DNA of 64,000 nt from Lachnospiraceae bacterium (lineage in GTDB: Bacteria > Bacillota > Clostridia > Lachnospirales > Lachnospiraceae). Made by a program: the position numbers and the translations under genes. Of this stretch, positions 11,815 to 56,797 are shown piece by piece. The stretch spans positions 1 to 64,000 of the forward strand of contig JAFRGQ010000027.1 in assembly GCA_017433725.1 (NCBI GenBank), given 5' to 3'. The notes under the pieces were generated by a model that saw only the letters and a list, made by a program, of their open reading frames with translations, searched no databases and was not told the DNA's origin. Each line of letters begins with the position of its first letter. Position 1 is the first letter of the stretch.

Positions 11815-12141
11815 GCATTCAGAAATGAAACTTTCGAACTTACGGACACGCTCAAGGAAGAGGAGAATATGGCTTGTCAATGCCCTGCCGAATGTGAATT
11901 AATGCAGGTGAGTCGGTATTAATATGGTATAATACCTAATATCTATCGGAGCCTCTTCGCGAACGATATAATCGTAATTTGCTCTTCCGGAATCAGGCGA
12001 CCATGCTTGCATGGTCATCTGACCCGCCAATCAAAGTTTGAATGTTTGCTTTCATACTTCGGTGCATAAACGTCGAGGCGTTCTTGAATGGGATAATACC
12101 TGCCGTCAGTCGCGTTCACCATATAGATGGAGGAGTGTACT
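11815..12141 (+). promoter_or_regulatory. regulatory region of the alarmone synthetase
   Basis: No gene is seen in these 327 bases. GGTATTA-N8-TAATACC (11914-11935) is a dyad that contains a TATAAT at 11928, so a repressor bound there would cover a -10. A good -35 is not visible. At 11995-12022 a hairpin with the perfect core GACCATGC-TT-GCATGGTC lies in the presumed leader. A second TAATACC occurs near 12095. Confidence 0.45.
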
Positions 12142-12762
12142 ATGAGCGATTTACATACAACAGTCAGTACAGACAGCACGGTCTCTATCTATGGCGACGC
12201 CCGCCCTGAACTGGAACAGACGATGCGAATGCTGTTTGAGGAAATAGAGAAGATTCGAAGTGAGATGGCGACAGAGCTCGGAATGGACCCCATTGAACAT
12301 CTGCTGGGAAGAATCAAATCGGAAGACAGTATGCGTGAAAAATGCAGGCGAAAAGGTCTTCCCGAGACAACGGAATCGGCGCTCGAGAAGATTCACGACG
12401 CGATCGGGCTGCGAGTGGTCTGCGCGTTTATTGACGACGTCTATACAATCCGTGACCGGCTGCTGGCTCTGCCTCATATTCGTCTGGTTAAGGAAAAGGA
12501 TTATATTCGCCACGCCAAGCCGAACGGATACCGCAGCTTTCACATGATTATTCTTGTTGACGAGAAGATATTCGCGGAGATTCAGCTGCGCACTATTTCC
12601 ATGGATACATGGGCAGCTCTGGTACACCACCTCAAATATAAAAAAGAGATCGGTGCCAATACCGCTCTCATCTCAGAAGAATTGAAGCGCTGCGCAGATG
12701 AATTGGCTTCCACGGATTCATCTATGCAGACTTTGAGGGATATGATTCGTGAGTTGCGATGA
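12142..12762 (+). CDS. small alarmone synthetase, RelA/SpoT domain
   Basis: The 206-residue protein is a single-domain (p)ppGpp synthetase of the RelP/RelQ size class. Visible elements are RIKSEDSMREKCRRKG, the metal-binding Asp in DAIGLRVVC, the substrate-binding block KDYIRHAKPNGYRSFH and the Glu in AEIQLRT. No hydrolase domain is present. Where RelQ proteins usually have an acidic residue before HKL, this one reads ALVHHLKYK. GGAGGAG precedes the ATG at 12142, which is preferred over the in-frame ATG 15 bases upstream. It sits 53 bases before a response regulator gene, so alarmone synthesis may be co-expressed with a two-component system. Confidence 0.9.
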   Translation: MSDLHTTVSTDSTVSIYGDARPELEQTMRMLFEEIEKIRSEMATELGMDPIEHLLGRIKSEDSMREKCRRKGLPETTESALEKIHDAIGLRVVCAFIDDVYTIRDRLLALPHIRLVKEKDYIRHAKPNGYRSFHMIILVDEKIFAEIQLRTISMDTWAALVHHLKYKKEIGANTALISEELKRCADELASTDSSMQTLRDMIRELR

Positions 12763-12815
12763 TACCGGGGCGTATTTAAGAACAGAATTGAAATTGCATA
12801 TATGAGGATTTTATT

Positions 12816-13484
12816 GTGAAAATATTAATTGCCGAAGACACCGCCGATCTCAACCGCGTAGTGACTGCGATGCTTGAGAAATTCGGATATGATGTGGATA
12901 GTGTATATGACGGCGAAGCCGCTCTGGAACAGATCGATCGCAGCGGTTATGATGCTGTGATCCTTGATATTATGATGCCCAAGATGGATGGCATTACTGC
13001 CCTCAAAAACATGCGCAGCCGGGGAATCAATATTCCGGTTCTTATGCTGACGGCCAAAGCGGAAATTGATGACCGGGTCGCCGGTCTTGACGCAGGTGCC
13101 GACGACTACCTTCCCAAGCCGTTTGCTATGAAGGAACTTCTCGCGCGCGTTAACGCTATGACGAGAAGAAAGACGAAATACTCCGGTTCCGTCGTGAGTT
13201 ATGCAGACTTTACGCTCAATACAGAGACACTCGAACTCTCAGCCGTGAACAGTGTACGTCTCTCCATGAAGGAGAGCGAGCTTCTGAGCCTGCTTATACA
13301 GCATAGCGGGAAGGAACTGCCGACGGACTTTATCTTGGAACACGTATGGAGGACGGACGATTCAGCTGACAGTAATACGGTCTACCTTTATGTCAGGTAT
13401 CTTCAGAGAAAGCTTGAGGGAGTCGGTGCTGCGGCACAAATCACAGGTAAGATAGGCGGGGCGTACATGCTTACGGCAAAATAG
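12816..13484 (+). CDS. OmpR/PhoB family response regulator
   Basis: The 222-residue protein has a receiver domain (phospho-acceptor Asp51 in VILDIMMPKMDG, the acidic pair at residues 7-8 and Lys in LPKPF) and a C-terminal winged helix ending NTVYLYVRYLQRKLEG. It starts with GTG, with GAGG 8 bases upstream. Its partner kinase begins 104 bases downstream. The small alarmone synthetase lies 53 bases upstream. The targets are unknown. Confidence 0.93.
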   Translation: MKILIAEDTADLNRVVTAMLEKFGYDVDSVYDGEAALEQIDRSGYDAVILDIMMPKMDGITALKNMRSRGINIPVLMLTAKAEIDDRVAGLDAGADDYLPKPFAMKELLARVNAMTRRKTKYSGSVVSYADFTLNTETLELSAVNSVRLSMKESELLSLLIQHSGKELPTDFILEHVWRTDDSADSNTVYLYVRYLQRKLEGVGAAAQITGKIGGAYMLTAK

Positions 13485-13487
13485 AGC

Positions 13488-13580
13488 AGCAGACATTCGG
13501 TTTGGAAGATGTCAGCTAACGCTGACCCGAATCCCGCGCCAAGTCTCGCGAGCGAGACTTGAAATCCCCGCAGACAGGAT
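13488..13580. repeat. dispersed hairpin repeat, copy 1
   Basis: The gap between regulator and kinase holds a perfect 9-bp stem CAAGTCTCG (13540-13548) with CGAGACTTG (13553-13561), preceded by GTCAGCTAACGCTGACCCGA (13512-13531). Related sequence recurs at 56798-56868, in inverted orientation near 62893, and in part near 36188. No T tract follows, so it is not a simple terminator. Confidence 0.55.
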
Positions 13581-13588
13581 CATGATTT

Positions 13589-14980
13589 ATGACAGAACGT
13601 GAAATCAAACGAATACGGAACAGATTTATAACGGTAGCTACGCTGACGCTTTTCGGCGTCATGTTGCTTATGGGAGGCTTTATATACCTTTTCGGCGTCA
13701 TCACAGTTCGCAATGAGACTTATCAGATTATGAAATATATTGCGGAAAATGATGGGAATCTGCCGGAACCGACAGAGCAGCAGAGCATTACCGGAAGCAG
13801 CGGAGACACACACGGAAGCACTTTAGATTCGCAGGACGAGTTCGACAGCTCTTTTTCGGAGACAATTGACTGGAGCTTCGGGAGCATCTTTGGCATCGGA
13901 AACTTCTTTGGCGAGACTCCGGAATATTACTATACGGTCCGGTATTTTGCCGTTCTTTTTGATGAGAACGAGCGTGTCACGAATATCAAGACGAGCCATA
14001 TTGCCAACATTGACAATGAAGAGGCTGAAAGATATGCATTGGCCGCGCTGGACAGATTCCGTAAGTTCGGAAAGTACGGGAGATATTATTATTACCGTGC
14101 GGGCAGAGAGAAGGGCGGCGCGATCGTAATTTATCTGGATCGCACGGAGCAGCTGAGTCTGATGCGCCGTATTCTGCTCTCGGCGCTGAGCAGTCTGGGT
14201 TTCGGAATGTGTCTGTCTTTCGTCATAATACCTCTGTTTTCTCAAAGCATCGTGCACACGGAAGTAGAGAATATGGAGAAGCAGAAACAGTTTATTACAA
14301 ATGCCAGCCATGAGCTAAAAACCCCGCTGGCGGTGATCAAAGCCAATACGGAGCTTCAGGAAATGATGGACGGCGAGACGGAGTGGACGCAGTCGACGCT
14401 TAGGCAGGTGGACCGTATGAGCGGCTTGATCGCCAATCTTTTACAGATTGCGCGCGCGCAGGAAAAGTCAGACGGCGAACTGTCGCAGGTCGACATCGCA
14501 GCTACTATATCGGAAACGGCGGATACTTTTATCCCCGTTGCCGAAAGCGAGGGTAAGAGGCTTGAAAAGAAGATACCCGATTCTCTTGTGATAAGGTCCA
14601 ATGACAGCAGTATAAGGCAGCTTACAACGCTTCTTATTGACAATGCCATTAAGTATTGCGACGACGGCGGGACTATCCTGGTCGGTCTGGAGCAAAGCAG
14701 GCGGGGGGCGGTCCTCACTGTTTCCAACGACTATGCGGAAGGCGCAAGCGTGGATTATTCGCGTTTTTTTGAAAGATTTTACAGACAGGATCAGGCGCGT
14801 ACCATATCGGCTGAGACTGCATCGGAAAAAGCAGCGGACGGATCCCAAAAGAGTACTGACAGGAACGGATATGGGATAGGTCTCTCCATTGCGGAATCAC
14901 TGGTCAAGTCGCTGAAAGGGAATATTGATGTTTCCTGGAATGATGGCCGGATCCGGTTTACCTGCAGATTTTCCCATTGA
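13589..14980 (+). CDS. sensor histidine kinase
   Basis: The 463-residue protein has two transmembrane segments (about residues 15-38 and 190-212) framing an extracellular sensor region of about 150 residues. That region is rich in Ser/Asp early on and Tyr-rich later (YGRYYYYRAGR). The H box is ITNASHELKTPLAV with His about 241. The N box (DNAIKYC), F box (FFERFYRQD) and G box (NGYGIGLSIAES) follow. It is the evident partner of the OmpR-type regulator upstream. The stimulus is unknown. Confidence 0.93.
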   Translation: MTEREIKRIRNRFITVATLTLFGVMLLMGGFIYLFGVITVRNETYQIMKYIAENDGNLPEPTEQQSITGSSGDTHGSTLDSQDEFDSSFSETIDWSFGSIFGIGNFFGETPEYYYTVRYFAVLFDENERVTNIKTSHIANIDNEEAERYALAALDRFRKFGKYGRYYYYRAGREKGGAIVIYLDRTEQLSLMRRILLSALSSLGFGMCLSFVIIPLFSQSIVHTEVENMEKQKQFITNASHELKTPLAVIKANTELQEMMDGETEWTQSTLRQVDRMSGLIANLLQIARAQEKSDGELSQVDIAATISETADTFIPVAESEGKRLEKKIPDSLVIRSNDSSIRQLTTLLIDNAIKYCDDGGTILVGLEQSRRGAVLTVSNDYAEGASVDYSRFFERFYRQDQARTISAETASEKAADGSQKSTDRNGYGIGLSIAESLVKSLKGNIDVSWNDGRIRFTCRFSH

Positions 14981-15140
14981 CAGAGATTTCACATTCTTCA
15001 CATTCGGAGAGTAGCAGCAGTTTTTCGGAAGTCTGCATTCTCCGTCTGCAACCGGCTGATTGCAGTGACAAAGTATGGTATTATGTAAGTGTTTATTACT
15101 AATATAGATATGACATGTGTGGAAACTTGATACTTAACGG

Positions 15141-15196
15141 CTTTCACGGCGCCTCCTGGCGGGCTGTGAAAAGCGATAGCTTTCATTTTAAGGAGG
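15141..15196 (+). promoter_or_regulatory. leader with a sequence complementary to the ribosome binding site
   Basis: TTTCAC (15142-15147) can pair with GTGAAA (15166-15171), enclosing CGCC-TCCT-GGCG. That hairpin contains CCTCCT (15152-15157), the exact complement of the Shine-Dalgarno AGGAGG (15191-15196) of the phosphatase gene. A third stem, TGAAAAGC with GCTTTCA (15167-15185), overlaps the first. The pairings are mutually exclusive, which is the layout of a translational switch. No known class was recognised. Confidence 0.4.
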
Positions 15197-15202
15197 TATT
15201 TT

Positions 15203-16354
15203 ATGGATTGGGTTGTCGTTGTTGATGATGATGTTACCAATCTCAAAATGGCAGGGCGTATTCTCAGCAAGCACGATATGCGTGTGACGGCTTTGAAGTC
15301 CGGTACGGCCCTTATTGAGTATATCAAAACCAACAAACCGGATCTGATTCTTCTGGATATCATGATGCCGGGACTCGATGGATTTGAGACTCTCAGGAGA
15401 TTAAAGGAACAGATGCCTCGTTCCGAAGAAATCCCTGTGATTTTCCTGACAGCTGATGAAAATCAGGAGTCCGAAACGCGGGGGCTGGCTCTCGGAGCTA
15501 TGGACTTCATTAAAAAACCTTTTGTCCCGGAAGTCCTGGTTCTCCGTGTCCGGCATACGATAGAGCTGGTGAGGCTTCAGCGCAATCTGGAGCGGGAAAA
15601 TGAGCGCATCCGCTCCGAACTCGCAATGGCTTCCCGCATACAGGCGGCCATGCTGCCGGGCATTTTTCCCGCCTTTCCGGAACGGGAGGAAATCGACGTC
15701 TATGCCAGTATGGATCCGGTCAGGCGTGTCGGCGGCGATTTCTATGATTTCTTCTTTATTGATAATAATCGGTTGTGTCTTCTCATAGCAGATGTCTCCG
15801 ACAAAGGAATTCCTGCGGCACTTTTTATGATGGCGTCCAAGATCATGTTGGCGGACAATGCGAAGAGCGGCAAGTCTCCGGCTCAGATTCTTCAGGATAC
15901 AAATGAAGCCATCTGTTCCAATAATCCGGAAGGAATGTTCGTGACGGTATGGCTCGGGATTCTGGATATATCCACAGGTCATCTTACGACTGCAAATGCA
16001 GGGCATGAGTATCCGGCACTTTTGCGTGCAGACGGACACTTTGAACTTATCAGAGACAGACACGGGTTGGTCATCGGCGGTATTCCCGGAATTCAATATT
16101 ATGATTGCCATGTGGAGATGAAGCCGGGCTCAAAAATATTCGTATATACGGATGGCGTGCCGGAAGCAACGAACGCCGGGAAGGAGTTTTTCGGGACAGA
16201 ACGCATGCTGCAGGCGTTGAACGCCCATAAGGACGGCACTCCGAAGCAGATCCTGCAAGGTATGCGGAAAGCTGTGATTGATTTTGCTCAGGATACGGAA
16301 CAGTTCGATGATATGACCATGCTGTGTCTGGAATATATGCCTAAGGAGCGTTAA
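15203..16354 (+). CDS. response regulator with PP2C/SpoIIE phosphatase output
   Basis: The 383-residue protein has an N-terminal receiver (Asp52 in LLDIMMPGLDG), a coiled-coil linker (residues about 122-150) and a SpoIIE/RsbU-type PP2C domain. PP2C motifs are VGGDFYDFF, IADVSDKGIPAAL, TTANAGHEYP and FVYTDGVPEATN. The family dephosphorylates anti-anti-sigma factors or other Ser-phosphoproteins, and phosphorylation of the receiver would gate activity. The ATG follows AAGGAGG. The gene is 2 bases from the next kinase gene and clearly in one operon with it. No STAS or RsbW-like partner is seen in the window. Confidence 0.92.
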   Translation: MDWVVVVDDDVTNLKMAGRILSKHDMRVTALKSGTALIEYIKTNKPDLILLDIMMPGLDGFETLRRLKEQMPRSEEIPVIFLTADENQESETRGLALGAMDFIKKPFVPEVLVLRVRHTIELVRLQRNLERENERIRSELAMASRIQAAMLPGIFPAFPEREEIDVYASMDPVRRVGGDFYDFFFIDNNRLCLLIADVSDKGIPAALFMMASKIMLADNAKSGKSPAQILQDTNEAICSNNPEGMFVTVWLGILDISTGHLTTANAGHEYPALLRADGHFELIRDRHGLVIGGIPGIQYYDCHVEMKPGSKIFVYTDGVPEATNAGKEFFGTERMLQALNAHKDGTPKQILQGMRKAVIDFAQDTEQFDDMTMLCLEYMPKER

Positions 16355-16356
16355 CC

Positions 16357-19209
16357 ATGGAGCAACGGAAACCAAAAAAGGATTATTTTGAAACGCATCA
16401 TCTCCTCATCTTAGGCTGTTACTCTGTTTTTGCTGTTTTGCTTATCGGTGAAGCCCTGCTCCTTAACTGGGAATTGTGGGCTCTGATTCTGATTGCTGTA
16501 TCGGTAGGCGTCTGCTGGACTTTGCATATCCGACAGACACTTTCAGAACATACAAGGATATGGGTCTATGCCATTCTTATGATGGTGTCGACTTTCTTCT
16601 ATGGGACTCACGTTACGAGTACCTATGATCTCGGACTGCTGATGACGGTCCTGATATTGATCTTTGTTTCAACGGGTATGCCGGGATTGATCACATTAGG
16701 CCAGTGTACGTATTATCTGGCGATGCTGTATGACCTGATTACCATGTACCGCATGGGTGAGCGCTTTGACAGTCTGCTGATTACCAGGACGATACTTCAT
16801 CTTGTCATTATCAGCGTCATATGTCTCATTGCCAGAAATATTATCAGACAGTGGGTCGGCATTATGGACAAGTCTGAAGAAGAAAAACAGGTGATGTTGG
16901 AGGCTGCGGACAGACTGAATGATTTTCTCGCAAATATTTCCCACGAGATCCGCACGCCTGTTAATGCCGTAATAGGACTTACAAGAATATGTATCGATAA
17001 GGTCAAAGACAGAGAAACGAAGAAAGACCTTATGTCTGTCATGGAGGCAGGCCAGAAAATCGGAGACCAGATCAGCGATATTCTGGATTACTCCGAGGTG
17101 GATATGGGATCCCTCGCGGTAAACGAAGAGGATTATATGATCACATCCCTGCTGAATGATATTGTGGCGGAGCTCTCTCCGCTCAAAAGGCAGGATCTGG
17201 AACTGGTCATAGATGTGGATCCACGCATTCCGGCCACCATGCGTTCTGATGTTTCGAAGCTGAAGAAGATAATCCGTCATCTGATAGACAACGCTCTAAA
17301 GTATACGGATGAGGGCGGCGTGTATGTACATTTCTCGCCTGAGGAACGGGAGTACGGAATTAATCTGCTTATCGAAGTCACGGATACCGGAATCGGGATG
17401 ACCGACGTGGAGCTGGAAAAGGTATTTGAACGCTTTTATCAGGCGGATTCGGGAAGAGCCCGGGCGGCGAACGGCCTGGGATTAGGTCTTTCCATTGTGA
17501 AGGGCTTTACCAGAAGCCTGAACGGTTTTCTGAAGATAGACAGCGAGCCGGGGGTAGGAACGACGATCCGCGTCAGCATCCCCCAGAAAGTCGTCGGTAA
17601 TGAGTATTGCATGAGCATTCAGGATCCGGGCAGACTGAGCCTTGGAGCGTATCTCCATCTTGAAAAATACAGGAATCCTCATGTCAGAGAATTCTACAAT
17701 GCCATGGTTAAAGATCTGGTGTTGGGACTTAAAGTGAAAATGCAGCGCGCGGACAATATGGCAGGGTTCAAAAAACTGGCGCAGGCTACCCGGTTCACGC
17801 ATGTCTTCGTGGGACAGCAGGAATATGAGGAAGATCCGGAGTTCATGAATGAACTTGCAAAGTCGGTGATGGTAGCCGTCGTATGTGACGCCTCGTTCGA
17901 GATACCCGAAGATTTGGGAGTCAGGCTTATGAGAAAGCCGTTCTACTGTGTTCCGGTTATCTCATTTGTAAACACGAACCGAACGGATTTAGGAAAAACG
18001 AAGGAAAAGCTTTATACCAGAGGCGTAAGAGCACTTGTGGTAGACGATGAGAATATGAATCTTCTTGTGGCAAAGCAGATATTTTCCGGCTATGGCATGA
18101 AGGTCAGTACGGCATCATCCGGACCGGAAGCGATCGAGTATGTACGGAACAATGAGGTGGATCTCATTTTCATGGATCATATGATGCCGGGCATGGACGG
18201 AGTGGAAGCCATGAAGCGCATTCGCGCTGTGTATGCCAAGGAGAAAAAGGAAGTGCCGATCGTAGCCCTTACGGCCAATACTGTCAGTACGGCAAATGAG
18301 ATGTTCCTGCGGGAGGGATTCGACGCTTTCCTTGCAAAGCCCATTGTGATCACGGAACTTGAGAGAACGATGAGAAAAGTTCTGCCGAAATCGCTTCTCA
18401 CGTTGGAGAAAGCGGGTTCCGAAAGGGAAGTCAGTTCTCAGGCTTTCGAGCAGGCACATGAAAGTTCTTCGGCAGGTGCCGGCATGATATCCGGAGACGA
18501 TGCTTCTTACCGGAACGGCAGCTCCGAAAGCACAGACAGTATTGCCGAATCTCTGCAGAATAACAGCCGGGAGACCTCCTGGGAAGAAAAGCTTACGCAG
18601 ATCGAATCGCTCGGAGTGGATACTACGGTCGGTTTGATGTATTGTCAGAATGATAATGACTTTTATCAGGAGCTTCTGCTGCAGTATGCAAGCGAGGCGG
18701 ATGGCAAAATCAGGAATGCTTCGATGGATCTGGAAGAAGGGGATTTTAAGAACTATGAGATCCTTGTGCACGCAGTGAAGAGCACTTCGAAAATGATCGG
18801 GGCTACTCACCTGTCCGAAGCGGCTTTTGTATTGGAGAAGGCCGCAAAGGATGAAGACGGGGAGACGATCCGTCAGGGACATGAGAGCGCGATGAAGGAG
18901 TATCGGCACATCGCGGACGGTATACTGACGACTTTCGGGAAGAAGACCGATGCAAAGTCAGAGGAGGATGAAGAAATCCTGGAGTTTTTCCCTGAAGGTG
19001 GTCCGGACGACGAGATTCTGGAGTTTTTCCCCGAGGAAGAGCCGAGTGACGAGGTTATGGAGTTTTTCCCCGAGGGAGAAGCAGACGACGAAGTTCTGGA
19101 ATTTGCGCCCGAGGGAGAAGCAGACGACGAAGTCCTGGAATTTGCCCCTGAGGGAGAGTCGGACGACGATATTGTGGAATTCTATCCGGAAGGAAGTGAA
19201 CATCCATGA
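16357..19209 (+). CDS. hybrid sensor kinase (HK-REC-Hpt) with acidic C-terminal repeats
   Basis: The 950-residue protein has about six N-terminal hydrophobic segments (residues 15-165), HisKA with His about 196 in ISHEIRTPVN, an HATPase domain (DNALKYTDEGG, NGLGLGLSIV), a degenerate middle region of about 100 residues, a receiver with Asp about 607 in FMDHMMPGMDG, and an Hpt domain with His about 805 in HAVKSTSKM. It ends in six imperfect 13-residue repeats of the type DEVLEFFPEGEAD. The sensor segment is all membrane with no large outside loop. It overlaps the next gene by the ATGA at 19206-19209, so translation is probably coupled. The repeats carry no known fold and may be a flexible docking tail. 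Confidence 0.92.
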   Translation: MEQRKPKKDYFETHHLLILGCYSVFAVLLIGEALLLNWELWALILIAVSVGVCWTLHIRQTLSEHTRIWVYAILMMVSTFFYGTHVTSTYDLGLLMTVLILIFVSTGMPGLITLGQCTYYLAMLYDLITMYRMGERFDSLLITRTILHLVIISVICLIARNIIRQWVGIMDKSEEEKQVMLEAADRLNDFLANISHEIRTPVNAVIGLTRICIDKVKDRETKKDLMSVMEAGQKIGDQISDILDYSEVDMGSLAVNEEDYMITSLLNDIVAELSPLKRQDLELVIDVDPRIPATMRSDVSKLKKIIRHLIDNALKYTDEGGVYVHFSPEEREYGINLLIEVTDTGIGMTDVELEKVFERFYQADSGRARAANGLGLGLSIVKGFTRSLNGFLKIDSEPGVGTTIRVSIPQKVVGNEYCMSIQDPGRLSLGAYLHLEKYRNPHVREFYNAMVKDLVLGLKVKMQRADNMAGFKKLAQATRFTHVFVGQQEYEEDPEFMNELAKSVMVAVVCDASFEIPEDLGVRLMRKPFYCVPVISFVNTNRTDLGKTKEKLYTRGVRALVVDDENMNLLVAKQIFSGYGMKVSTASSGPEAIEYVRNNEVDLIFMDHMMPGMDGVEAMKRIRAVYAKEKKEVPIVALTANTVSTANEMFLREGFDAFLAKPIVITELERTMRKVLPKSLLTLEKAGSEREVSSQAFEQAHESSSAGAGMISGDDASYRNGSSESTDSIAESLQNNSRETSWEEKLTQIESLGVDTTVGLMYCQNDNDFYQELLLQYASEADGKIRNASMDLEEGDFKNYEILVHAVKSTSKMIGATHLSEAAFVLEKAAKDEDGETIRQGHESAMKEYRHIADGILTTFGKKTDAKSEEDEEILEFFPEGGPDDEILEFFPEEEPSDEVMEFFPEGEADDEVLEFAPEGEADDEVLEFAPEGESDDDIVEFYPEGSEHP
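18966..19206 (+). repeat. coding tandem repeat, 39-bp unit, six copies
   Basis: The repeat lies inside the hybrid kinase gene. Each unit encodes about 13 residues with the core E(I/V)(L/M)EF(F/A/Y)PEG. Middle copies are nearly identical at DNA level, which points to recent duplication. The last copy diverges (EFYPEG). Confidence 0.85.
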
Positions 19210-21944
19210 ATAAAATGATAGATTTTATATTCCGCCAGAAGAAAAACCCGAATTGTGAAGCCCTGATAAAGGACGGCGTGTATGACGCCCTCCGGGTGTC
19301 TCTCATAGTCACTCCTCTTTTCATAGCAGCGATCACGTCGACGTTTCTTAAGACCTTCTTTTGGACGGAATCTAATATAAAATTCGCTCTTGCGCAGAAC
19401 TATCAGTTTTACTATGCCTGCGTCATAGTCTGTGAAGTCCTTTACGGAATTCTTCTGCTTTACATTCGTAAAAATTATGATGAGAGATACCGCCTGCTGC
19501 CGCGCATCAATGTGTTCATGATGGTGATGCTGCTGTGGTATGCAATCAATGTATGCAGACTGGATTATACCTCATATGACTACAGGGTGAATCCGACACT
19601 TTTTATGGTCGTGTCAATGTGCGTTCCGTTTACACTTTATCTTGATGTGAGACTTTATCTGCTCATTACGGTGATTTCGGATTGTATCTTTGCCCGCCTG
19701 TATTTTATTGAAGGACCATATGCGGCATATAACAGAAGCAGTTTCGAATATTTCGGCTTTTTTATCGGTACGCAGCTTCTTCTCGGCGTGATTGTCTACT
19801 ATTACAAATACAACGCGAAACAGAACATTCTTGAGCAGGAAGCACAGAAAGAAGAGATTCGAAAATTAAATCAGGCACAGAACAGGTTCTTTTCTAACAT
19901 GAGTCATGAAATTCGGACGCCGATCAACACGATCATAGGTCTGAACGAGATGATTCTTCGGCAGAACGCCTCGCCGGAAATCAATGAGGATGCCGAAAAT
20001 ATCCAGGCAGCCAGCAAGATGCTTCTCCATCTGATCAATGATATTCTGGATATGTCAAAATTTGAAACGGGTCAGATGGAACTCACGCCGGCACCTTACC
20101 GCACCGGGGATATGCTTTCCGACATCGTAGGTATGCTGTGGATACGCGCAAAGGAGAAGAATCTCGAGTTTTCTGTAGATGTATCGCCGGACCTTCCGTC
20201 GGAACTGCTCGGAGACGACATGCGTATCAAGCAGGTCCTGATTAATGTCCTGAATAATGCTATTAAATACACGAACGAGGGTTCCGTACGCCTGCAGATT
20301 CAGTGTGAGAGGAACGACTCCGGAGTCGCGCTGGTCTCCTATGCCATAAGCGATACAGGCATGGGTATCAAAACGGAGAGTATCCCCTATCTGTTTACGG
20401 CCTTTAAACGCGTCGATATGGATAAGAACAAATATATCGAGGGTACTGGGCTCGGTCTCTCCATCGTCAAGCAATTTGTCGATCTTATGGGTGGAAAGAT
20501 CACGGTCAACAGCGTGTATACGAAAGGATCCACTTTTATAATCGAGATTCCTCAGAAAATCGTTGTGGATGAGCCGTTGGGTGAGATTGATGTGCTGAAC
20601 AGAAAGCGGGCTCGGGAGGAGCATATTTATGTGCAGTCTTTTGAAGCTCCGGATGCAAAGGTGCTCGTTGTGGACGACACGTCGGCCAACCTCATGGTCG
20701 TGTCGAAGCTTCTCAGGGATACGCAGGTCAAACTGGAGCTGGTTTCCTCCGGAAAGGAAGCCCTGGATAAGACGCAGGAAGATTTCTACCATGTCATTCT
20801 GATGGATCACAAGATGCCGGGTATGGACGGAATCGAGTGCATGCACGCCATAAGGGCGCAGGTGGGTGGTAAATGTCAGGAGTCAAAGATCATAGCTCTG
20901 ACGGCAAACGCCGGAAGCGACACGAAAGAAATGTATTTCAGGGAAGGCTTTGATGGATATCTGATGAAGCCTGTAACAGGTGAAGAACTGGAAAATACAG
21001 TGTATCATGCTCTCCCGAAAGACATCGTGACGGTGACCGGAACAGCGCAGGAACTTGCAGAAGAGAGTACTGCATGGGTAAGGGAACATAAGAAGAAAAA
21101 GCGAATCAAGGTGACGACCGACAGTGTTGCGGATATTCCGGCAGAATTCGTCGAGCAGTATGACATTGCACTGATTCCGCATATGGTGAAAACCGGTTAC
21201 GGACTTTTCAAAGACGGTCTGGAAATAGAAACGGCCGGTCTTATATCATATATGGAAGAAACGAATGCGGTCGCGGAAACGCTTTCTCCTTCCGTGGAAG
21301 ATTACAGCGATTTCTTCTCAAAGCAGCTTGACGAGGCCAACAACATCATTCACATATCCATATCCAGCCAGATCCTCAATACCGGTTATCCGGCAGCTCA
21401 GAAGGCAGCTGCTGATTTCGGGAATGTGACGGTAATAGATTCCGGGCATCTGTCGAGCGGCCAGGGCATCATGGCCGTCGTGGCAGCCCGTCTGGCAGAG
21501 GAGGGAAAGGATGTCGAGAGTATTGCGGCAGAAATGGAAGAGATGAAGCGGCATGTACACACAAGCTTTATTGTGGATTCGCTTGATTACCTGGCCAGAC
21601 AGAAATATATCTCCGCGCGCGGCGGTTATCTGGCAGACGCGTTCATGGCCCATCCGGTGCTTGCTCTGAGAAAAGGAAAAATGGCTTTGAGCAGATTCTA
21701 TTTCGGTTCCAGAGAACGAGCCTGGAAGAAGTATATAGCATCCGCGCTCCGGGTACCGGGAACGATCAGCAACCGGATTGTGTTCATCACATATGCCGGC
21801 ATGTCGACAAAAGAACTGGATAAGGTAAAGGAGTTGGTCGAGGCAAAGGTGAAGTTTGATAGGATTTATATTCAGAAAGCCTCTCCCGCAATTGCGGCAA
21901 GCTGCGGACCGGGGACATTCGGCCTGCTGTTCTTTACAGAGTGA
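19206..21944 (+). CDS. hybrid histidine kinase fused to a DegV domain
   Basis: The 912-residue protein has about six N-terminal hydrophobic segments (residues 32-200), HisKA with His about 234 in MSHEIRTPIN, HATPase (NNAIKYTNEG, GTGLGLSIVKQF) and a receiver with Asp about 534 in LMDHKMPGMDG. From about residue 634 to the end lies a full-length DegV (EDD) domain. It starts VTTDSVADIP, contains ISISSQILNTGY and SGHLSSGQGIM, and ends GPGTFGLLFF. Stand-alone DegV proteins bind fatty acids and several act as FakB partners of fatty acid kinase. Here the domain takes the place of an output module. It may let lipid state control, or be controlled by, phosphorelay. Translation is coupled to the kinase upstream. 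Confidence 0.93.
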   Translation: MNKMIDFIFRQKKNPNCEALIKDGVYDALRVSLIVTPLFIAAITSTFLKTFFWTESNIKFALAQNYQFYYACVIVCEVLYGILLLYIRKNYDERYRLLPRINVFMMVMLLWYAINVCRLDYTSYDYRVNPTLFMVVSMCVPFTLYLDVRLYLLITVISDCIFARLYFIEGPYAAYNRSSFEYFGFFIGTQLLLGVIVYYYKYNAKQNILEQEAQKEEIRKLNQAQNRFFSNMSHEIRTPINTIIGLNEMILRQNASPEINEDAENIQAASKMLLHLINDILDMSKFETGQMELTPAPYRTGDMLSDIVGMLWIRAKEKNLEFSVDVSPDLPSELLGDDMRIKQVLINVLNNAIKYTNEGSVRLQIQCERNDSGVALVSYAISDTGMGIKTESIPYLFTAFKRVDMDKNKYIEGTGLGLSIVKQFVDLMGGKITVNSVYTKGSTFIIEIPQKIVVDEPLGEIDVLNRKRAREEHIYVQSFEAPDAKVLVVDDTSANLMVVSKLLRDTQVKLELVSSGKEALDKTQEDFYHVILMDHKMPGMDGIECMHAIRAQVGGKCQESKIIALTANAGSDTKEMYFREGFDGYLMKPVTGEELENTVYHALPKDIVTVTGTAQELAEESTAWVREHKKKKRIKVTTDSVADIPAEFVEQYDIALIPHMVKTGYGLFKDGLEIETAGLISYMEETNAVAETLSPSVEDYSDFFSKQLDEANNIIHISISSQILNTGYPAAQKAAADFGNVTVIDSGHLSSGQGIMAVVAARLAEEGKDVESIAAEMEEMKRHVHTSFIVDSLDYLARQKYISARGGYLADAFMAHPVLALRKGKMALSRFYFGSRERAWKKYIASALRVPGTISNRIVFITYAGMSTKELDKVKELVEAKVKFDRIYIQKASPAIAASCGPGTFGLLFFTE

Positions 21945-22258
21945 GAGAAGGACTTGAGAAGTAATTCTCGAACTTTTATTATAGTTTTTTCATATAGGGA
22001 GACTGCCTTGAAGATGTGTAGTATATACGGTAATGTATAGTTATCTAATACTTCCCACATGAAATATGTGAACAGTCTCATCATAAAAAATGCATCGTCG
22101 GGACGCTGCACAGCATAAGTTCGATCACGGAAATTGAAGATTTCCTATCTCACCGGTTGAGTGAAGTGTTTTGCGGAGTACTGGATGATGATTCGGGTAG
22201 GAAGTGATGTGCAGAGCGGCATAGCAGCAGATCGTACTGTCAGAAAGAGAGGTGTACC
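21945..22258. repeat. intergenic region with repeat copy A (22050-22107)
   Basis: A short stem TTGAGAA/TTCTCGA near 21955-21972 followed by T-rich sequence may end the signalling operon. Bases 22050-22107 run from ACTTCCC to GGGACGCT and recur with about two-thirds identity at 27255-27313. The most conserved part is ATGCATCGTCGGGACGCT. No gene is seen. Confidence 0.6.
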
Positions 22259-22480
22259 ATGAAATCACTATTAATAAAAGACACCACAAAAGAAGAACGT
22301 GAAGAGATCATTCGCAGCTCCATGGATTGCGGCGGGGGATGTGAGAACTGCTCCTCCTGCTGGCTTGGTGGCGGCTCACCCTGGGACATTTATCAGGACT
22401 ATATTGACGGTAAGCGTGAGATCAGAGAGATCAACGCAGTGTATATGGAAGAGTACCGTCAGGGCAGAAAGATTCTTTGA
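22259..22480 (+). CDS. small Cys-rich protein, unknown function (paralog 1)
   Basis: The 73-residue protein has a CGGGCENCSSC cluster at about residues 24-34 and a C-terminal helix DIYQDYIDGKREIREIN. The layout of a charged helix, a Cys cluster, then DIYxxYIxGKxxxxEIN matches a family of small proteins seen in Clostridia whose function I do not know. The cluster could bind a metal or iron-sulfur centre. The ATG follows GAGAGGTG. A paralog starts 12 bases after its stop. Confidence 0.75.
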   Translation: MKSLLIKDTTKEEREEIIRSSMDCGGGCENCSSCWLGGGSPWDIYQDYIDGKREIREINAVYMEEYRQGRKIL

Positions 22481-22491
22481 GGGGTGATGTT

Positions 22492-22692
22492 ATGAACGAA
22501 GCGCCGAAGATATCCGACTCGACGGTCGAGGAACGAAGAGAATACATCAGGAAAAGATACCCGTGTATAGCCGACTGCGATATGTGTGGGCTCTGCAAAG
22601 TGTTTCATGGCATGGATGCGGAACGGGCCTACGATGACTACATCATGGGAAAGCGAACGTTCATGGATGTATCTGCAGATTACAGACGCTGA
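22492..22692 (+). CDS. small Cys-rich protein, unknown function (paralog 2)
   Basis: The 66-residue protein is built like its neighbour: a charged N-terminal helix (TVEERREYIRKRYP), a Cys cluster CIADCDMCGLC at about residues 25-35 and a helix AYDDYIMGKRTFMDVSADY. The two genes are 12 bases apart and presumably arose by duplication. GGGGTGA lies 5 bases before the ATG at 22492. A metal-binding role is possible but unproven. Confidence 0.75.
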   Translation: MNEAPKISDSTVEERREYIRKRYPCIADCDMCGLCKVFHGMDAERAYDDYIMGKRTFMDVSADYRR

Positions 22693-23003
22693 TTATCCAT
22701 AAACAAAAGCTTTCGGATAGCATCGGGAAAATGTGTTGCAGATTACCTGTTCATTATGTGCTGCTTGTTCTTTTGCTACAATCGTCACGTGAATACTACA
22801 TCATAAATTTAATTGGGGTTGACGCATTAGGCAGTGCCGAAACAATATAGTACAGACATTTTAAATGATGACTGCAATATATTGTGGCTTCGCTTTTGAT
22901 ATGCGACAACCTCTTTTTATGTCTGTAAAATCAAGGTATAATGATTCTGGATAAACATGTTCCGCATGGGAGTTTATCTGAGAAATAGTAAAGAGGAAGA
23001 AGT
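22693..23003 (+). promoter_or_regulatory. upstream region of the OPT transporter
   Basis: No gene is seen. TATAAT at 22937-22942 is the best -10 but has no clear -35. ACAGACAT near 22851 and ATGTCTGT near 22918 form 8-bp inverted arms about 60 bases apart, the second just before the -10. TTGACG at 22818 may belong to another start. Confidence 0.35.
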
Positions 23004-24905
23004 ATGAGTAACAACACAGAAGAAAAAAAGAACTTTAAGCCGTATGTGCCGGCAAATGAAAATCCGCCTGAGTTCACTGTGACCTCCACGGTAATGGGAA
23101 TCCTGCTGGCCATAGTATTCGGAGCCGCAAATGCATATCTCGGGCTCCGAGTCGGTATGACGGTATCCGCGTCGATACCGGCTGCGGTCATCTCTATGGG
23201 AGTGATCCGCGTACTTATGAAAAAAGACTCAGTACTGGAGAGCAACATGGTTCAGACTATCGGCTCTGCGGGCGAGTCGCTGGCAGCCGGCGTTATCTTT
23301 ACCATGCCGGTTCTGTTTCTGTGGTCGGCGGAAGGCGTAGCCGATGCGCCCAGCCTTGTCATGATATCCTTCATCGCACTTTGCGGAGGCGTTCTCGGAG
23401 TGCTCTTCATGATTCCCCTCAGAAATGCGCTGATCGTAAAGGAGCACGGTGTTCTGCCGTACCCGGAGGGAACGGCCTGCGCGGAAGTGCTTCTGGCGGG
23501 GGAAGAAGGCGGCGAAGGTGCGAAACAGGTATTTGCAGGCATGGGTATTTCAGCGATATGCAAGTTCCTGGTCGACGGACTGAAGCTGGTCCCCGGTGTG
23601 GTTACAGCGCCTATTCGAGCCCTGCGGACGGAGTTCTCTGCGGAAGTATATCCTGCTCTCATAGGCGTAGGCTATATCTGCGGTCCGAAGATCTCTTCCT
23701 ATATGTTCGCGGGCGGTATACTCGGCTGGTTCGTCCTGATACCTGCCATCATTTTGTTCGGCAGTGAGACAACACTTTATCCGGGAACGGAGACGATCGC
23801 GAAGATGTATGAGGCCGGTGGAGCGTCTGCTATCTGGAGCAGCTATATACGCTATATCGGTTCAGGTATGGTGGCAGCGGGCGGTATCTTCAGCCTGATC
23901 AAATCTATGCCGCTCATCTTTTCGACATTTGTGGATGCTCTGAAAGGAATTCGGGCTTCAAAGGACGGAGAGGGCAACCGCACAGAGATAGATCTTGACA
24001 TGAGATTTGTTCTTGCCGGTATAGCAATTATCGTACTCCTGCTCTGGCTGGTTCCGCAGGTCCCGGTTTCCCTTCCGGGAGCAATTCTGGTCGTTGTGTT
24101 CGGATTTTTCTTTGGGGCGGTATCTTCGCGTATTGTCGGACTGGTCGGCAGCAGCAACAGCCCGGTCTCCGGTATGACAATCGCCACTCTGCTTTTTGCA
24201 ACATTTATCTTGAAAATGACAGGAGATACGGGAATGCACGGGATGATCGGTGCAATCACGATCGGATCGGTCATCTGTATTGTCGCCGCTATGGCGGGTG
24301 ATACATCACAGGATCTCAAGACGGGATTTTTATTGGGCGCTACCCCTATCAGGCAGCAGGTCGGAGAGCTGATAGGAGCTTTGGCTTCAGCGATTGCTAT
24401 CGGAGGCGTGCTGGTGCTTCTCAACAATGCATGGGGCTTTGGAACAAAAGAACTTGCTGCGCCGCAGGCAACGCTCATGAAGATGATCGTGGAGGGCGTT
24501 ATGAACGGAAATCTTCCCTGGCCACTCATATTTATCGGCGTGTTCATTGCTGTCGTGATCGAAATCATGGGAATGCCGGTGCTGCCTGTTGCAATCGGAC
24601 TTTATCTGCCGCTGGAGCTCTCTTCAACCATCATGATCGGCGGTCTTATCAGATGGATCGCAGACCGTTTAGCCGGTAACAAGGAACAGGATAACGGTGC
24701 AGGCGGTGGAATTCTGTTCTGCTCCGGTATGATAGCCGGGGAGGGTATCGTAGGTATTCTTCTGGCAATTCTGGCGGTTCTGGGCGTTACAGATGCTCTG
24801 GATATGTCATCCGCGATAAATGGCGGAATCATCGGCAGTCTGCTGGTGCTTGCTGTCATGGTGGGCTGTGTATTCTGGTTCTCGCGTAAGGCGAAGAAAT
24901 CCTGA
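23004..24905 (+). CDS. OPT family oligopeptide transporter
   Basis: The 633-residue protein has about 15 hydrophobic segments. The N-terminal block ANAYLGLRVGMTVSASIPAA and the downstream EGTACAEVL and GSSNSPVSGMT are typical of the OPT superfamily, bacterial branch. It imports oligopeptides or metal chelates across the cytoplasmic membrane by proton coupling. The ATG at 23004 follows GAGGAAG. The gene ends RKAKKS-stop, and its last 20 bases form the first unit of a three-copy tandem duplication that runs into the intergenic space. Confidence 0.9.
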   Translation: MSNNTEEKKNFKPYVPANENPPEFTVTSTVMGILLAIVFGAANAYLGLRVGMTVSASIPAAVISMGVIRVLMKKDSVLESNMVQTIGSAGESLAAGVIFTMPVLFLWSAEGVADAPSLVMISFIALCGGVLGVLFMIPLRNALIVKEHGVLPYPEGTACAEVLLAGEEGGEGAKQVFAGMGISAICKFLVDGLKLVPGVVTAPIRALRTEFSAEVYPALIGVGYICGPKISSYMFAGGILGWFVLIPAIILFGSETTLYPGTETIAKMYEAGGASAIWSSYIRYIGSGMVAAGGIFSLIKSMPLIFSTFVDALKGIRASKDGEGNRTEIDLDMRFVLAGIAIIVLLLWLVPQVPVSLPGAILVVVFGFFFGAVSSRIVGLVGSSNSPVSGMTIATLLFATFILKMTGDTGMHGMIGAITIGSVICIVAAMAGDTSQDLKTGFLLGATPIRQQVGELIGALASAIAIGGVLVLLNNAWGFGTKELAAPQATLMKMIVEGVMNGNLPWPLIFIGVFIAVVIEIMGMPVLPVAIGLYLPLELSSTIMIGGLIRWIADRLAGNKEQDNGAGGGILFCSGMIAGEGIVGILLAILAVLGVTDALDMSSAINGGIIGSLLVLAVMVGCVFWFSRKAKKS

Positions 24906-43769: not shown

Positions 43770-46700
43770 TTATGCTGCTTCTCGACATTTGCGCTTCATC
43801 ACAATACCTGCACCTGCAAGCATCGTCAGGATACAGCCGAGAAGATAGATGCGATTAGTGCCGGGACCGCCTGTTGAGGGGAGCGGATTGCCCTGAGCAT
43901 TTTTCACCTCGATAGTCGAGTTATTGTCTTTGAGCTCTACTCCGGTATATGTTTCCGGGGTGCCGTCTACATTGGTAAGCGCGACTGTTCCGTTAGAAAC
44001 ACTGAAGTAGATGTCTCTCGTCAGTATCAGGTAGCCCGGAGGAGGATCTGTCTCTGTGAGCTTATATATGCCGTTGGCCATTCCGGTAAAGGTCATCTCT
44101 GTTATGTCTGACAAGTCTATCAGACCCTGTTCCAACCCATAGTTCGTGACTTCATTAAAGCTTCCTTCATCGTCCTTTTTATACAGCACAAATTTTGCTC
44201 CGGGTATTGCATTTCCCTCTTCATCTGTTTTACGGATTGTAATGCCAAGGGGCGTATTCTCAATGTTGATCTGATATGAAACAGTACCGGGAACGGAAGT
44301 ATCTTTGACCAGCCAGTTCGCATATCCGGAGTTATGAATTACTACGGATCCGTCCCTGCCAATTGTAAAACACAGATCTTCTGCCAGCTTCTTATAGCCG
44401 CTTGGAGCTGCTTTTTCCCTTAGATAATATGTACCTGTCCCGACGCTCATCGTCAGATCCTCGAGAATGCCTTCGTCATTCGACACAAGATCATCATAGC
44501 CGGTCTTCGGGTTATAAGCCGGACGCACGTTTCCTTCACTGTCTTTGACTTGATCATACAGCGCAAAATGAACATCGCTCAACGGAACCCTCGTGTCTCC
44601 GTTAAAGCCTACCTTCACTACTTTCAGTTCCTGTACGGTGCGGTTCTTAACGGTGATGCGCGCCATGGCCGTTTCCGTCGCCTGAGTGGTCGTATAAAAG
44701 CCATCCGGTCCGTTCAGCACAATATAGTAAGTAGTGGTTCCCGATGTCACAGTCAGATCATAGTTGCTCGGTGCCGTTGTCGTCACTGTGATAGTGATCG
44801 GCTCATCCAGCGCCACATAGCCAGACGGAGTTCTAATTTCGTTCAGGGTGAATGTACCTTCGTTCAGATAGGCAGTTGTCACCAGACCCTTGCTGTCGGA
44901 AGTGTAGGAAGCATGTCCAACATCGTTTCCGTCGGAATCTTTAAGCGTGAATTGTGCACCGGACAGATAAGTGTCCCCGCTCCAATCCGTCTTATAAATC
45001 TGAATACCCGGTCTGGAGTTTTTCACCGTATCCGTGCGGATGTTTGCGTTTTGCCCGGTGGATTCGCCGGGAGTATAGTTAACGGTATAATTTTCAGTTC
45101 GTTCGGTTCCGCTGACACTGATGCTGTCGCCTTCTTCTTTGCGCGTGATGCCGGTATAGCTTGTCACAACGCCGTTCGCATCCACAACAGGATCCGTCAC
45201 TTCCACTTCACGAACAATGAATTTGTCAAATGTTTTTGGCTCGCCGTTTATTTTCAGATCCTGGAAAAACCAATAGACTTCCGTCTCACCGGTATTCAGC
45301 CTGCGTACAGTTCCGTCTATTAGGTCTCCGAGAGTGCCGTCATCATTGGCCAGGTAGACTGCCAGATAGATCGGATCGTGGATCATAAAGTCTTTATCCG
45401 TCCATTCTTTTTCTGCTGTCAAGCCCCAGCCTTGCTGGTTACGGACCTCGATCTTAGGCGATTCGGTTTTGTCGGCGATGGTATCGCTGATCGGTTCCGC
45501 CGTAATCGTGTTACCATCCAGTGCATGCCGCCCGTAAATATCGTTTTCGGTATAATAGACTACCGCTCCTTCAGACAGATCTGTGCGGACATAACCGTCA
45601 CTGTCCCTGCGTGTGTAGCCTTTCGGAATCTCCCGGTCCGGCTCATCTAACTTATATTTGGTGCCGACGATCAGATCCCGTACTTCGACCGTATAACCGG
45701 CGGGAATTTTTGAGATAGCCCCGTACATTGACGTGGTGAATGTTCCTGCTTGCTGATCGGCTTCACTCAGGGCCTTAAAGGCTTCAAATGTATTAACACC
45801 CAGTGAGATAAATTTACTACTTGTTTTATCCCATTTACAATAGTTATCATCCGGTCCTTTGACATAATAAGTGTACATATCTGCCGGGAGAAGATTTTCC
45901 TGTTCCGCAAACTCATTGCCGAGATATAGTCTGTATGTAAATGTATCTTTGATCTGTGCAGCCTGTTCATCTGTAAGGCGTTCGCCGTTCGTATCGTAAA
46001 GCACCTTCTCGAACGATACTGTACGCATGACCTCGGGAGGGACCTCGTTTGTGTACTCTATATTCGGACGATCCTCTGTCGTATCATAGCTGATGCCAAA
46101 ATCAGATCGTGTAGTCCCTTCATATGTTGTAGTATGATCAGGCAGTGTTTCCTCTCCGACAGGCGGTGTCCAACCATCAGTGTTATTGTGTGGTTTTCCA
46201 AAAATTTCATTTTGAACGCCGTTGATGAGGACATGCTCATATACTGCAGTATCCACTCCGCATTCGACGATTTTGTACCGGTAAGTATTTTCGGGGAAGT
46301 TGATCACTGCTGTCTCACCCGCTTTGAGCAGGAATACATTGTTGTATGTTATACCTCCTATTGTCATGGTTTCCTTATAAGGAATCAGCTTTTTTGTTCC
46401 CTTATATACAGCATATACCTTTCCGGTCAGATTTGTGTTCGTCGTCGGCTGTGACAGAAGAACAGGTTCGTGATAATCGGTTATGATACGATGATTATTC
46501 TCGTCAAGCACGTATGTACCATCTTCATTCTGCAGGAATTCAGCTGTCTGATACCAGATCTGATAAGGGTACTGAATCAGCTTGTTCGATGTATTGTCAA
46601 TACCTTTGAGCTTTTTTGACAATTCAACTGTTCCGGGCTTTACAGAAGCCAGATTAAAACGCATTTTCAAGTTCGATGCGCCCGCACCGCGCTCCATGTA

Positions 46701-47048
46701 GAACATCTTCATCTCATGAGTGGTGTAATCACTAAAAACATGGACAGTTTCCCCATTCACAATTTTCGTCACAAAGAGCTCGTCGACTTTGTTTTCATCC
46801 AACCCGCGTGCGCGGTAATTACTTTTGAAGACTTCATAAAGCGATGTTGTAGTGCCATTGCAGATTACTTCGCCTGTTCTGAAGTTCACAGAACCGCCAA
46901 TGGCGCTGTGAACGCCACCCAGATCCAGCACCAGTTCGCCGTCAACGTAGAACCAGAAGTCATCGTCGCCGGTAAACTCGAAGATGATGTCGTGTCCCCA
47001 GTTGTCTACGCCATCAGGTGTCTGAGTGAATACGGCGGAAAGCTCCAT
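43770..47048 (-). CDS. C-terminal part of interrupted giant LPxTG adhesin
   Basis: This 1092-codon open stretch is the rest of the gene at 47085-50618, cut off by one in-frame TAG. It begins inside a fibro-slime domain (DDDFWFYVDGELVLDLGG), continues with several Cna_B/SpaA-type domains (for example IYKTDWSGDTYLSGAQFTL and TIRKTDEEGNAIPGAKFVLY) and ends with LPSTGGPG, a hydrophobic segment and a basic tail, a sortase substrate. The first ATG (47048) has no ribosome binding site and no signal peptide, so it is not an independent gene. Without readthrough, this anchor half is not made. Confidence 0.85.
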   Translation of the reverse strand: MELSAVFTQTPDGVDNWGHDIIFEFTGDDDFWFYVDGELVLDLGGVHSAIGGSVNFRTGEVICNGTTTSLYEVFKSNYRARGLDENKVDELFVTKIVNGETVHVFSDYTTHEMKMFYMERGAGASNLKMRFNLASVKPGTVELSKKLKGIDNTSNKLIQYPYQIWYQTAEFLQNEDGTYVLDENNHRIITDYHEPVLLSQPTTNTNLTGKVYAVYKGTKKLIPYKETMTIGGITYNNVFLLKAGETAVINFPENTYRYKIVECGVDTAVYEHVLINGVQNEIFGKPHNNTDGWTPPVGEETLPDHTTTYEGTTRSDFGISYDTTEDRPNIEYTNEVPPEVMRTVSFEKVLYDTNGERLTDEQAAQIKDTFTYRLYLGNEFAEQENLLPADMYTYYVKGPDDNYCKWDKTSSKFISLGVNTFEAFKALSEADQQAGTFTTSMYGAISKIPAGYTVEVRDLIVGTKYKLDEPDREIPKGYTRRDSDGYVRTDLSEGAVVYYTENDIYGRHALDGNTITAEPISDTIADKTESPKIEVRNQQGWGLTAEKEWTDKDFMIHDPIYLAVYLANDDGTLGDLIDGTVRRLNTGETEVYWFFQDLKINGEPKTFDKFIVREVEVTDPVVDANGVVTSYTGITRKEEGDSISVSGTERTENYTVNYTPGESTGQNANIRTDTVKNSRPGIQIYKTDWSGDTYLSGAQFTLKDSDGNDVGHASYTSDSKGLVTTAYLNEGTFTLNEIRTPSGYVALDEPITITVTTTAPSNYDLTVTSGTTTYYIVLNGPDGFYTTTQATETAMARITVKNRTVQELKVVKVGFNGDTRVPLSDVHFALYDQVKDSEGNVRPAYNPKTGYDDLVSNDEGILEDLTMSVGTGTYYLREKAAPSGYKKLAEDLCFTIGRDGSVVIHNSGYANWLVKDTSVPGTVSYQINIENTPLGITIRKTDEEGNAIPGAKFVLYKKDDEGSFNEVTNYGLEQGLIDLSDITEMTFTGMANGIYKLTETDPPPGYLILTRDIYFSVSNGTVALTNVDGTPETYTGVELKDNNSTIEVKNAQGNPLPSTGGPGTNRIYLLGCILTMLAGAGIVMKRKCREAA

Positions 47049-47084
47049 GCCGTAGTAATAGTCGGCATCATTTTGCGGAATCGA

Positions 47085-56723: not shown

Positions 56724-56797
56724 ACTTACCTCTTGTTGTTCTATTATGCTTACTGCCAATTCTGCTGCGATGCTAATCAGGGATTTGGTGCAGAATC

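Follow-up and report, generated by a model that had tools for sequence, protein, structure and literature searches.

What is a DegV domain, known from free fatty-acid carriers of the FakB type, doing at the end of a sensor kinase? The question is raised by a gene (19206..21944, forward strand) in a 64,000-nucleotide stretch of a Lachnospiraceae genome (assembly GCA_017433725.1, contig JAFRGQ010000027.1, positions 1 to 64,000), the whole of which is called the window below. The gene runs in a single frame from ATG to stop and encodes a protein of 912 residues, in which an N-terminal membrane region is followed by HisKA, HATPase, receiver (REC) and DegV domains. Our analysis indicates that this DegV domain is not a normal FakB. 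With a confidence slightly better than even, we read it as a cytosolic ligand-sensing input module of FakB-like origin that has been uncoupled from fatty-acid kinase and acts together with the hybrid kinase encoded directly upstream.

The domain order is well defined. The membrane region (residues 1-205; 19206..19820) contains four hydrophobic clusters in a hydropathy scan, corresponding to about 4-6 segments. It is followed by HisKA (residues 224-289; 19875..20072; E 2.9e-18) with the phospho-acceptor His234, HATPase_c (residues 336-451; 20211..20558; E 1.2e-24), a Response_reg receiver (residues 486-599; 20661..21002; E 7.1e-23) with the phospho-acceptor Asp534, and DegV (residues 634-911; 21105..21938; E 8.9e-47), all on the forward strand and all four scoring above the curated Pfam cut-offs. 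The complete hybrid kinase and full DegV domain in one frame, described in the initial annotation, are thus both present. In 23 of 23 aligned full-length fusions His234, the HATPase residues N351, D383, G413, and G415, and the receiver residues D490, D491, D534, T566, and K588 are invariant. Across a wider set of 100 fusions the phospho-His, N-box Asn, G1 Asp, and G2 Gly are kept in 99-100 (one gap), and the receiver residues (DD/D/T/K) in 98-100. By its kinase and receiver residues, the window protein is a hybrid histidine kinase. The DegV match covers positions 2-279 of the 280 in the Pfam profile (PF02645), and NCBIfam agrees, with TIGR00762 scoring 177 bits where its cut-off is 99.7; these whole-domain matches point to the DegV fold. 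Solved chains matched by sequence are DegV-family proteins, several of them deposited as fatty-acid kinase B, with most of the domain aligned.

A join of this kind might be an assembly artefact or a chance read-through of two genes. The source genome is split into 98 contigs and rated 76.8% complete, and one relative (L156) is divided over two overlapping frames. However, the search for the same domain order across genomes, proposed in the initial annotation, yielded 100 distinct fused DegV domains with one arrangement, collected from a sample of Lachnospiraceae genomes and other records. A contig search returned 25 loci, of which 16 (L006-L021) aligned through the end of DegV and nine in the kinase and receiver parts only. 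The 16 are assigned to Lachnospiraceae, Butyrivibrio, Eubacterium, Clostridiales or Clostridia; one comes from goat rumen, and the RUG isolates among the relatives are presumably rumen genomes. One separate record (L017) is 99% identical to the window fusion, with unchanged gene order. Further surveys used a profile built from 23 full-length fusions and required a match ending at or beyond position 855 of 890; as scoring was limited to two or three candidates from each genome, the counts are lower bounds, and the three samples overlap. The fusion was found in at least 68 of 397 Lachnospiraceae genomes (83 rows). Its end was reached in at least 9 of 391 genomes of the class sample, six of them Lachnospiraceae and three from one genus of another family, and in at least 3 of 299 of the phylum sample, all Lachnospiraceae; outside Lachnospiraceae, among the genomes sampled, the fusion was therefore found in one genus only.

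The DegV part is under purifying selection. The ratio of nonsynonymous to synonymous substitution rates (dN/dS) in this part is 0.059 between L007 and L008. Comparing the window with L006 gives 0.153 and with L007 0.158, synonymous sites being near saturation in both of these comparisons. Between the window and L017 there are zero amino-acid changes in DegV, with too few differences for a dN/dS estimate. The fusion is confirmed as a real gene: the homologs, including at least 68 genomes of the family sample, refute the artefact, and its probability is negligible.

The fusion does not stand alone. Directly upstream lies a gene for a membrane hybrid kinase of 950 residues (16357..19209, forward strand) with HisKA (residues 187-249), HATPase (298-410), REC (560-670), and Hpt (772-836) domains by Pfam; its stop overlaps the fusion start by 4 bp. 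An upstream open reading frame (ORF) is visible for 92 of the 100 fusions, and in 81 of the 92 it is a homolog of this partner (more than 300 bits to the partner kinase), with the same 4-bp overlap in 28 of the 81 pairs. The fusion thus belongs to a two-gene module with the upstream hybrid kinase. Eleven loci are exceptions. Three short stretches (L037, L039, and L040) lack a visible partner, which their longer versions (L047, L049, and L050) show; in L036 a fragment with Hpt lies upstream, where the contig ends; in L138 an ORF with Hpt and REC lies upstream beyond a small ORF of the opposite strand; the partner is split in two ORFs in L089, and one small ORF intervenes in L128. Two further cases are the tandem fusions of L141; a hybrid kinase that falls short of the threshold precedes one of them. 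In L014 and L038 the partner is absent from the fetched upstream stretch. The tandem pair of L141 (7251-12640) is flanked by two more hybrid kinases with Hpt matches.

The placement of Hpt gives good evidence that the paired kinases share one relay. The window fusion has no Hpt of its own by Pfam, and its receiver would be served by the Hpt of the overlapping upstream gene, as expected in a phosphorelay. Among the 81 pairs Hpt is found in the partner only in 67 and in the fusion only, after DegV, in 13, while no pair has it in both; in the remaining pair the partner lacks Hpt and the fusion (L126) ends at a contig edge. Together with L122, whose partner is not in view, Hpt follows DegV in 14 of the 100 fusions. 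Two such fusions (L041 and L044) were confirmed by Pfam to carry a C-terminal Hpt, with none in their partners, and in L050 Pfam places Hpt in a separate downstream gene; Pfam checks covered these three loci and the window, the other placements being taken from matches to Hpt queries. Because Hpt shifts between the two proteins and yet stays single per pair, the two kinases are likely to feed a common phosphate path. Kinase and receiver residues are intact in all 87 partner-like proteins (more than 330 bits and 600 residues), of which 70 have the Hpt His, 14 a gap, and three a different residue. DegV was initially described as the terminal module of the protein; this holds for the window fusion and not in general, given the Hpt that follows it in some relatives.

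The DegV part was compared with Staphylococcus aureus FakB2, whose functional residues we take to be T61, S93, R170, R202, and H266, with T61, S93, and H266 presumably forming the carboxylate network; the numbering was checked against chain 4x9x. R170 and R202 are equivalent to Arg173 and Arg205 of FakB1. In FakB1, fatty-acid exchange persists in the Arg173 mutant, in which the Fak assay is dead, and Arg205 is the key residue for attachment to FakA and the membrane (PMC9136124). Stand-alone DegV proteins served as controls; they are a non-random set comprising the best-scoring DegV loci of fusion genomes and the best stand-alone matches of the fused profile, and are divided into the ten nearest to the fusions (nine in the adjoining clade and L073) and 31 others.

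Losses are heaviest at two positions. First, the docking Arg (R202, counted as kept if Arg occupies the aligned column or the one before) is present in 2 of 100 fusions, against 9 of 10 nearest and 31 of 31 other stand-alone proteins. Second, the carboxylate-site His (H266) is also kept in only 2 of 100 fusions, against 10 of 10 and 26 of 31; Asn takes its place in 90 fusions, and one fusion ends before the site. The phosphorylation Arg (R170) is retained by 34 fusions, and by all ten nearest and all 31 other controls. The position of T61, in contrast, carries Thr in 21 and Ser in 59 fusions (80 of 100), and is kept in 10 of 10 and 28 of 31 controls. Ser occupies the S93 column in 49 of 100 fusions, an extra residue in 30 making the alignment uncertain there. 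The G of the GPG loop that follows the His position is kept in 99 of 100. In the window protein T61, R170, R202, and H266 correspond to T692, Y801, F833-G834, and S899, respectively; T692 is thus kept, Ser899 replaces the His, and the S93 alignment is blurred by a one-residue insertion.

By these residues the fused DegV departs from FakB at both the docking Arg (F833-G834) and the phosphorylation Arg (Y801), and is not a normal FakB. The initial annotation had started from stand-alone DegV/FakB proteins as fatty-acid carriers and suggested a direct exchange of information between lipid state and signalling; with R202 and H266 kept in two fusions each and R170 in 34, the inference that this DegV carries fatty acids too is weakened. 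It had also treated loss of the pocket residues as decisive. Such a loss is seen at the residue that docks FakA and, in 66 of 100 fusions, at the phosphorylation residue; the fold shows none, and the carboxylate site, with its Ser/Thr in 80 and Asn in 90 of 100, shows no clear one. Because the FakB1 Arg173 mutant still exchanges fatty acid (PMC9136124), the losses probably remove Fak coupling and not necessarily ligand binding.

These residues also bear on the possibility that DegV is the output of the protein, i.e., that a FakB, switched by phosphorylation of the receiver, supplies the host FakA, so that signalling controls fatty-acid uptake. DegV does follow the receiver, as outputs of response regulators do, and a FakA-type gene is present in the genome. 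On the other hand, the docking Arg is missing in 98 of 100 fusions and the phosphorylation Arg in 66 (roles according to PMC9136124), Hpt following DegV in 14 fusions fits a relay receiver, and the recognised adjacent regulators carry signalling outputs of their own. An output in the Fak pathway is disfavoured by the Arg losses, and we consider it very improbable. The source genome encodes one FakA-type protein and four stand-alone DegV proteins, three of which keep T61, R170, R202, and H266; ordinary Fak duty therefore looks covered.

The main rival to sensing is a ligand-free scaffold, in which the DegV part serves for dimerisation or for docking to the partner kinase or the response regulator. 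Of 100 fusions, 98 lack the carboxylate His and 98 the docking Arg, a second hybrid kinase adjoins the fusion in 81 of 92 loci, and in L166 and L167 DegV is attached to an ATPase-domain protein without a HisKA or receiver match, all of which a scaffold would accommodate. However, the replacement of the His is specific: Asn stands at this position not only in 90 of 100 fusions but also in six of six other kinase-linked DegV forms. Since Asn replaces the His, Ser or Thr stands at T61 in 80 of 100 fusions and the GPG-loop G is kept in 99, the site appears to be remodelled rather than decayed. Moreover, the DegV forms of L164 and L165 are separate proteins. We therefore regard a pure scaffold as unlikely, though it is the most serious of the alternatives.

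Relatives of the fusion suggest how it arose. L164 and L165 encode an Asn-type DegV on its own, in the gene immediately following that of a partner-type kinase (HisKA-HATPase-REC-Hpt); in L165 the next gene encodes a REC-GGDEF protein. In the DegV tree these two stand at the base of the kinase-linked clade (support 0.973 and 0.376), and the node adding nine Arg- and His-bearing stand-alone DegV proteins has support of 1.0. As the nearest stand-alone proteins retain R170, R202, and H266, the residue losses appear to fall near the joining of DegV to kinases. Most simply, these forms are read as a series from a free carrier to an altered DegV acting in trans, then to the fusion, and finally to the fusion with Hpt, one node being weakly supported. 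L154, from the same genus, and L155 encode HK-REC relatives without DegV (the L154 kinase was confirmed by Pfam) beside a receiver protein and a small protein with a match to the Hpt region of the partner, so DegV is, on this gene content, an add-on that such a relay does not need. A further form occurs in L166 (5290-7878) and L167 (5451-8063), where Pfam finds neither HisKA nor receiver in the ATPase-domain protein that carries DegV; a downstream gene matches GGDEF in each, the next gene of L166 being dCache-GGDEF by Pfam. These proteins are possible pseudokinase-DegV regulators.

The ligand-sensing reading can be put as a working model. The fusion would be a membrane-anchored hybrid kinase paired with the upstream hybrid kinase, and either kinase of the pair could autophosphorylate. 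A receiver would take up the phosphate and hand it on to the one Hpt of the pair, from which it would reach a neighbouring response regulator, ending at a PP2C phosphatase in the window and at an enzyme of cyclic di-GMP (c-di-GMP) metabolism in about a third of the relatives. Ligand occupancy of DegV would bias either the balance of kinase and phosphatase activities or the exchange between receiver and Hpt. A fatty acid, or else another amphipathic acid, is the probable ligand. Sensing is suggested because, although the docking residue is gone, the domain keeps its fold, a Ser or Thr at the carboxylate site and a specific substitute for the His (Asn, here Ser), and is under purifying selection; this Arg may be dispensable, as the kinase already holds the protein at the membrane.

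Several points weigh against this model. With the carboxylate-site His gone and Ser in the S93 column in just 49 of 100 fusions, the fused pocket may bind something else or nothing. In the window protein the His is replaced by Ser instead of Asn. R170 is kept in 34 of 100 fusions and the His is absent from 5 of 31 other stand-alone DegV proteins; the loss of these two residues is therefore not perfectly tied to kinases. Support values in the tree are uneven near the base of the kinase-linked clade, ranging from 0.376 to 0.973. Finally, sensor domains usually lie N-terminal to the kinase core, and the N-terminal membrane region could be the sensor here. In that case the main signal would enter through the membrane region, and DegV, binding a non-lipid metabolite, would only tune the kinase. 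The N-terminal region is the least conserved part of the fusion (mean pairwise identity 0.20, against 0.43 for DegV), as is common for input regions, and the change of His to Asn alters the chemistry of the carboxylate site. Against this, the sequence-matched solved chains belong to the DegV family and include deposited fatty-acid kinase B structures, and no feature suggests a different ligand class; we rate this alternative as rather improbable.

Comparison with known systems helps to place the proposed ligand-sensing module. The likeness to FakB (PF02645; S. aureus FakB2, PDB 4x9x) consists in the full-length domain match and the Ser/Thr at T61 in 80 of 100 fusions; the differences are the loss of R202 and H266 in 98 of 100 each and of R170 in 66, and the fact that FakB is a free carrier and the fused DegV is part of a kinase. 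Hybrid kinases of the BarA/TorS type, which give the best NCBIfam alignments of the fusion (below cut-offs), have a common HisKA-HATPase-REC core, from which the fusion differs by its C-terminal DegV and by one Hpt serving two hybrid kinases. To our knowledge, the kinase of the S. aureus SaeRS system has no DegV domain. The activity of this two-component system requires fatty-acid kinase (PMC5539427); the link runs between separate proteins, unlike that in the fusion. The closest working analogue is RpfC-RpfG of Xanthomonas. RpfC is a hybrid kinase of the membrane that has REC and HPt domains and responds to a fatty acid (diffusible signal factor, DSF), which activates it, and it works with the HD-GYP regulator RpfG; it senses DSF N-terminally and is described there without mention of a DegV domain (PMC5391125). 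A REC-HD-GYP neighbour is found in 20 of 100 fusion modules. However, the fusion module has two kinases, not one, and the window has a REC-SpoIIE regulator with no adjacent REC-HD-GYP; the similarity is thus one of working, not of membership. DegV is in some cases one domain within a multidomain protein (PMC12288450). A search of open-licence papers, at the level of the abstracts listed, did not find a DegV-kinase fusion described, and the link of a lipid-binding fold to a phosphorelay, of which the initial annotation knew no characterised example, is apparently undescribed in this literature.

The likely output of the relay in the window is encoded just before the two kinases. A response regulator of 383 residues (15203..16354, forward strand), with Response_reg (residues 4-116) and SpoIIE (188-377; PP2C-type phosphatase) domains by Pfam, ends 2 bp ahead of the partner kinase, and homologs are found in the equivalent position in L006, L007, L013, and L017; the PP2C phosphatase is the output in the own clade of the window fusion. 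Adjacent regulators were counted on the same strand, up to three genes before or two after the fusion, outputs being recognised by five query domains only (SpoIIE, HD-GYP, GGDEF, EAL, and winged helix). Per 100 fusions there are 20 with HD-GYP (with or without GGDEF), ten with GGDEF without HD-GYP, one with EAL-GGDEF, and three with SpoIIE; c-di-GMP enzymes make up 31 of the 34 recognised adjacent outputs. A receiver without recognised output was found in 25 cases and Hpt-receiver fragments in six, and for 35 fusions, contig ends included, no adjacent regulator was seen. Dropping the strand condition leaves the counts of the four output classes unchanged.

Other genes occur near the modules. 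CheA, CheW, and methyl-accepting chemotaxis protein (MCP) genes stand directly before the kinase pair in L105 by Pfam, and genes that match this set by length only precede the two kinases in L103, L114, L116, L123, L125, and L129; a chemosensory array may feed the relay there. A sodium:alanine symporter is encoded downstream of the Hpt-bearing fusion in L041 (8047-9573, Pfam), and ORFs of 507-512 residues, symporter-like in length only, lie near the fusions of L111, L115, L117, L118, L120, and L122. In the window, two small Cys-rich ORFs (22259-22480, 73 residues, and 22492-22692, 66 residues; forward strand) are located between the fusion and an OPT transporter gene; by eye they resemble each other in CxxC motifs and a common Y..YI.GKR stretch. 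Upstream, a small RelA/SpoT-domain protein (12127-12762, forward strand), YjbM-like in NCBIfam below the cut-off, is encoded next to an OmpR-type two-component pair (12816-14980), and three consecutive very long ORFs of 1092, 1177, and 1944 residues occupy 43770-56759 on the reverse strand. A search of the window against Rfam at gathering thresholds gave no match. A promoter and terminator scan of 12000-23100, with 21 promoter-like matches against 15.9 expected and 14 terminator-like against 8.4, was not used as evidence.

For annotation, a DegV match is weak evidence of FakB once the docking Arg and the His are lost. The relatives form an evolutionary series, from the free carrier through an altered DegV beside a kinase to the fusion and the fusion with Hpt, in which a metabolic carrier becomes part of a signalling protein; the altered residues suggest that DegV was rebuilt as a sensor after losing key residues of the shuttle. 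Lipid sensing is plausible in this group because a relative, the biohydrogenating bacterium Butyrivibrio fibrisolvens of the rumen, is reported to be poisoned by unsaturated fatty acids (PMC2836310). A wider proposal, which we make tentatively and with somewhat less than even confidence, is that a carrier domain has turned receptor, so that two-kinase relays of Lachnospiraceae, some of which live in the rumen, read the lipid state through the C-terminal DegV and set c-di-GMP or PP2C outputs, in a Gram-positive parallel to DSF/RpfC sensing whose sensor parts are unrelated. If DegV senses lipids, the link between lipids and the phosphorelay could be tested with purified proteins, and fatty acids would feed directly into a phosphorelay of these anaerobes, in many cases with a second messenger as output.

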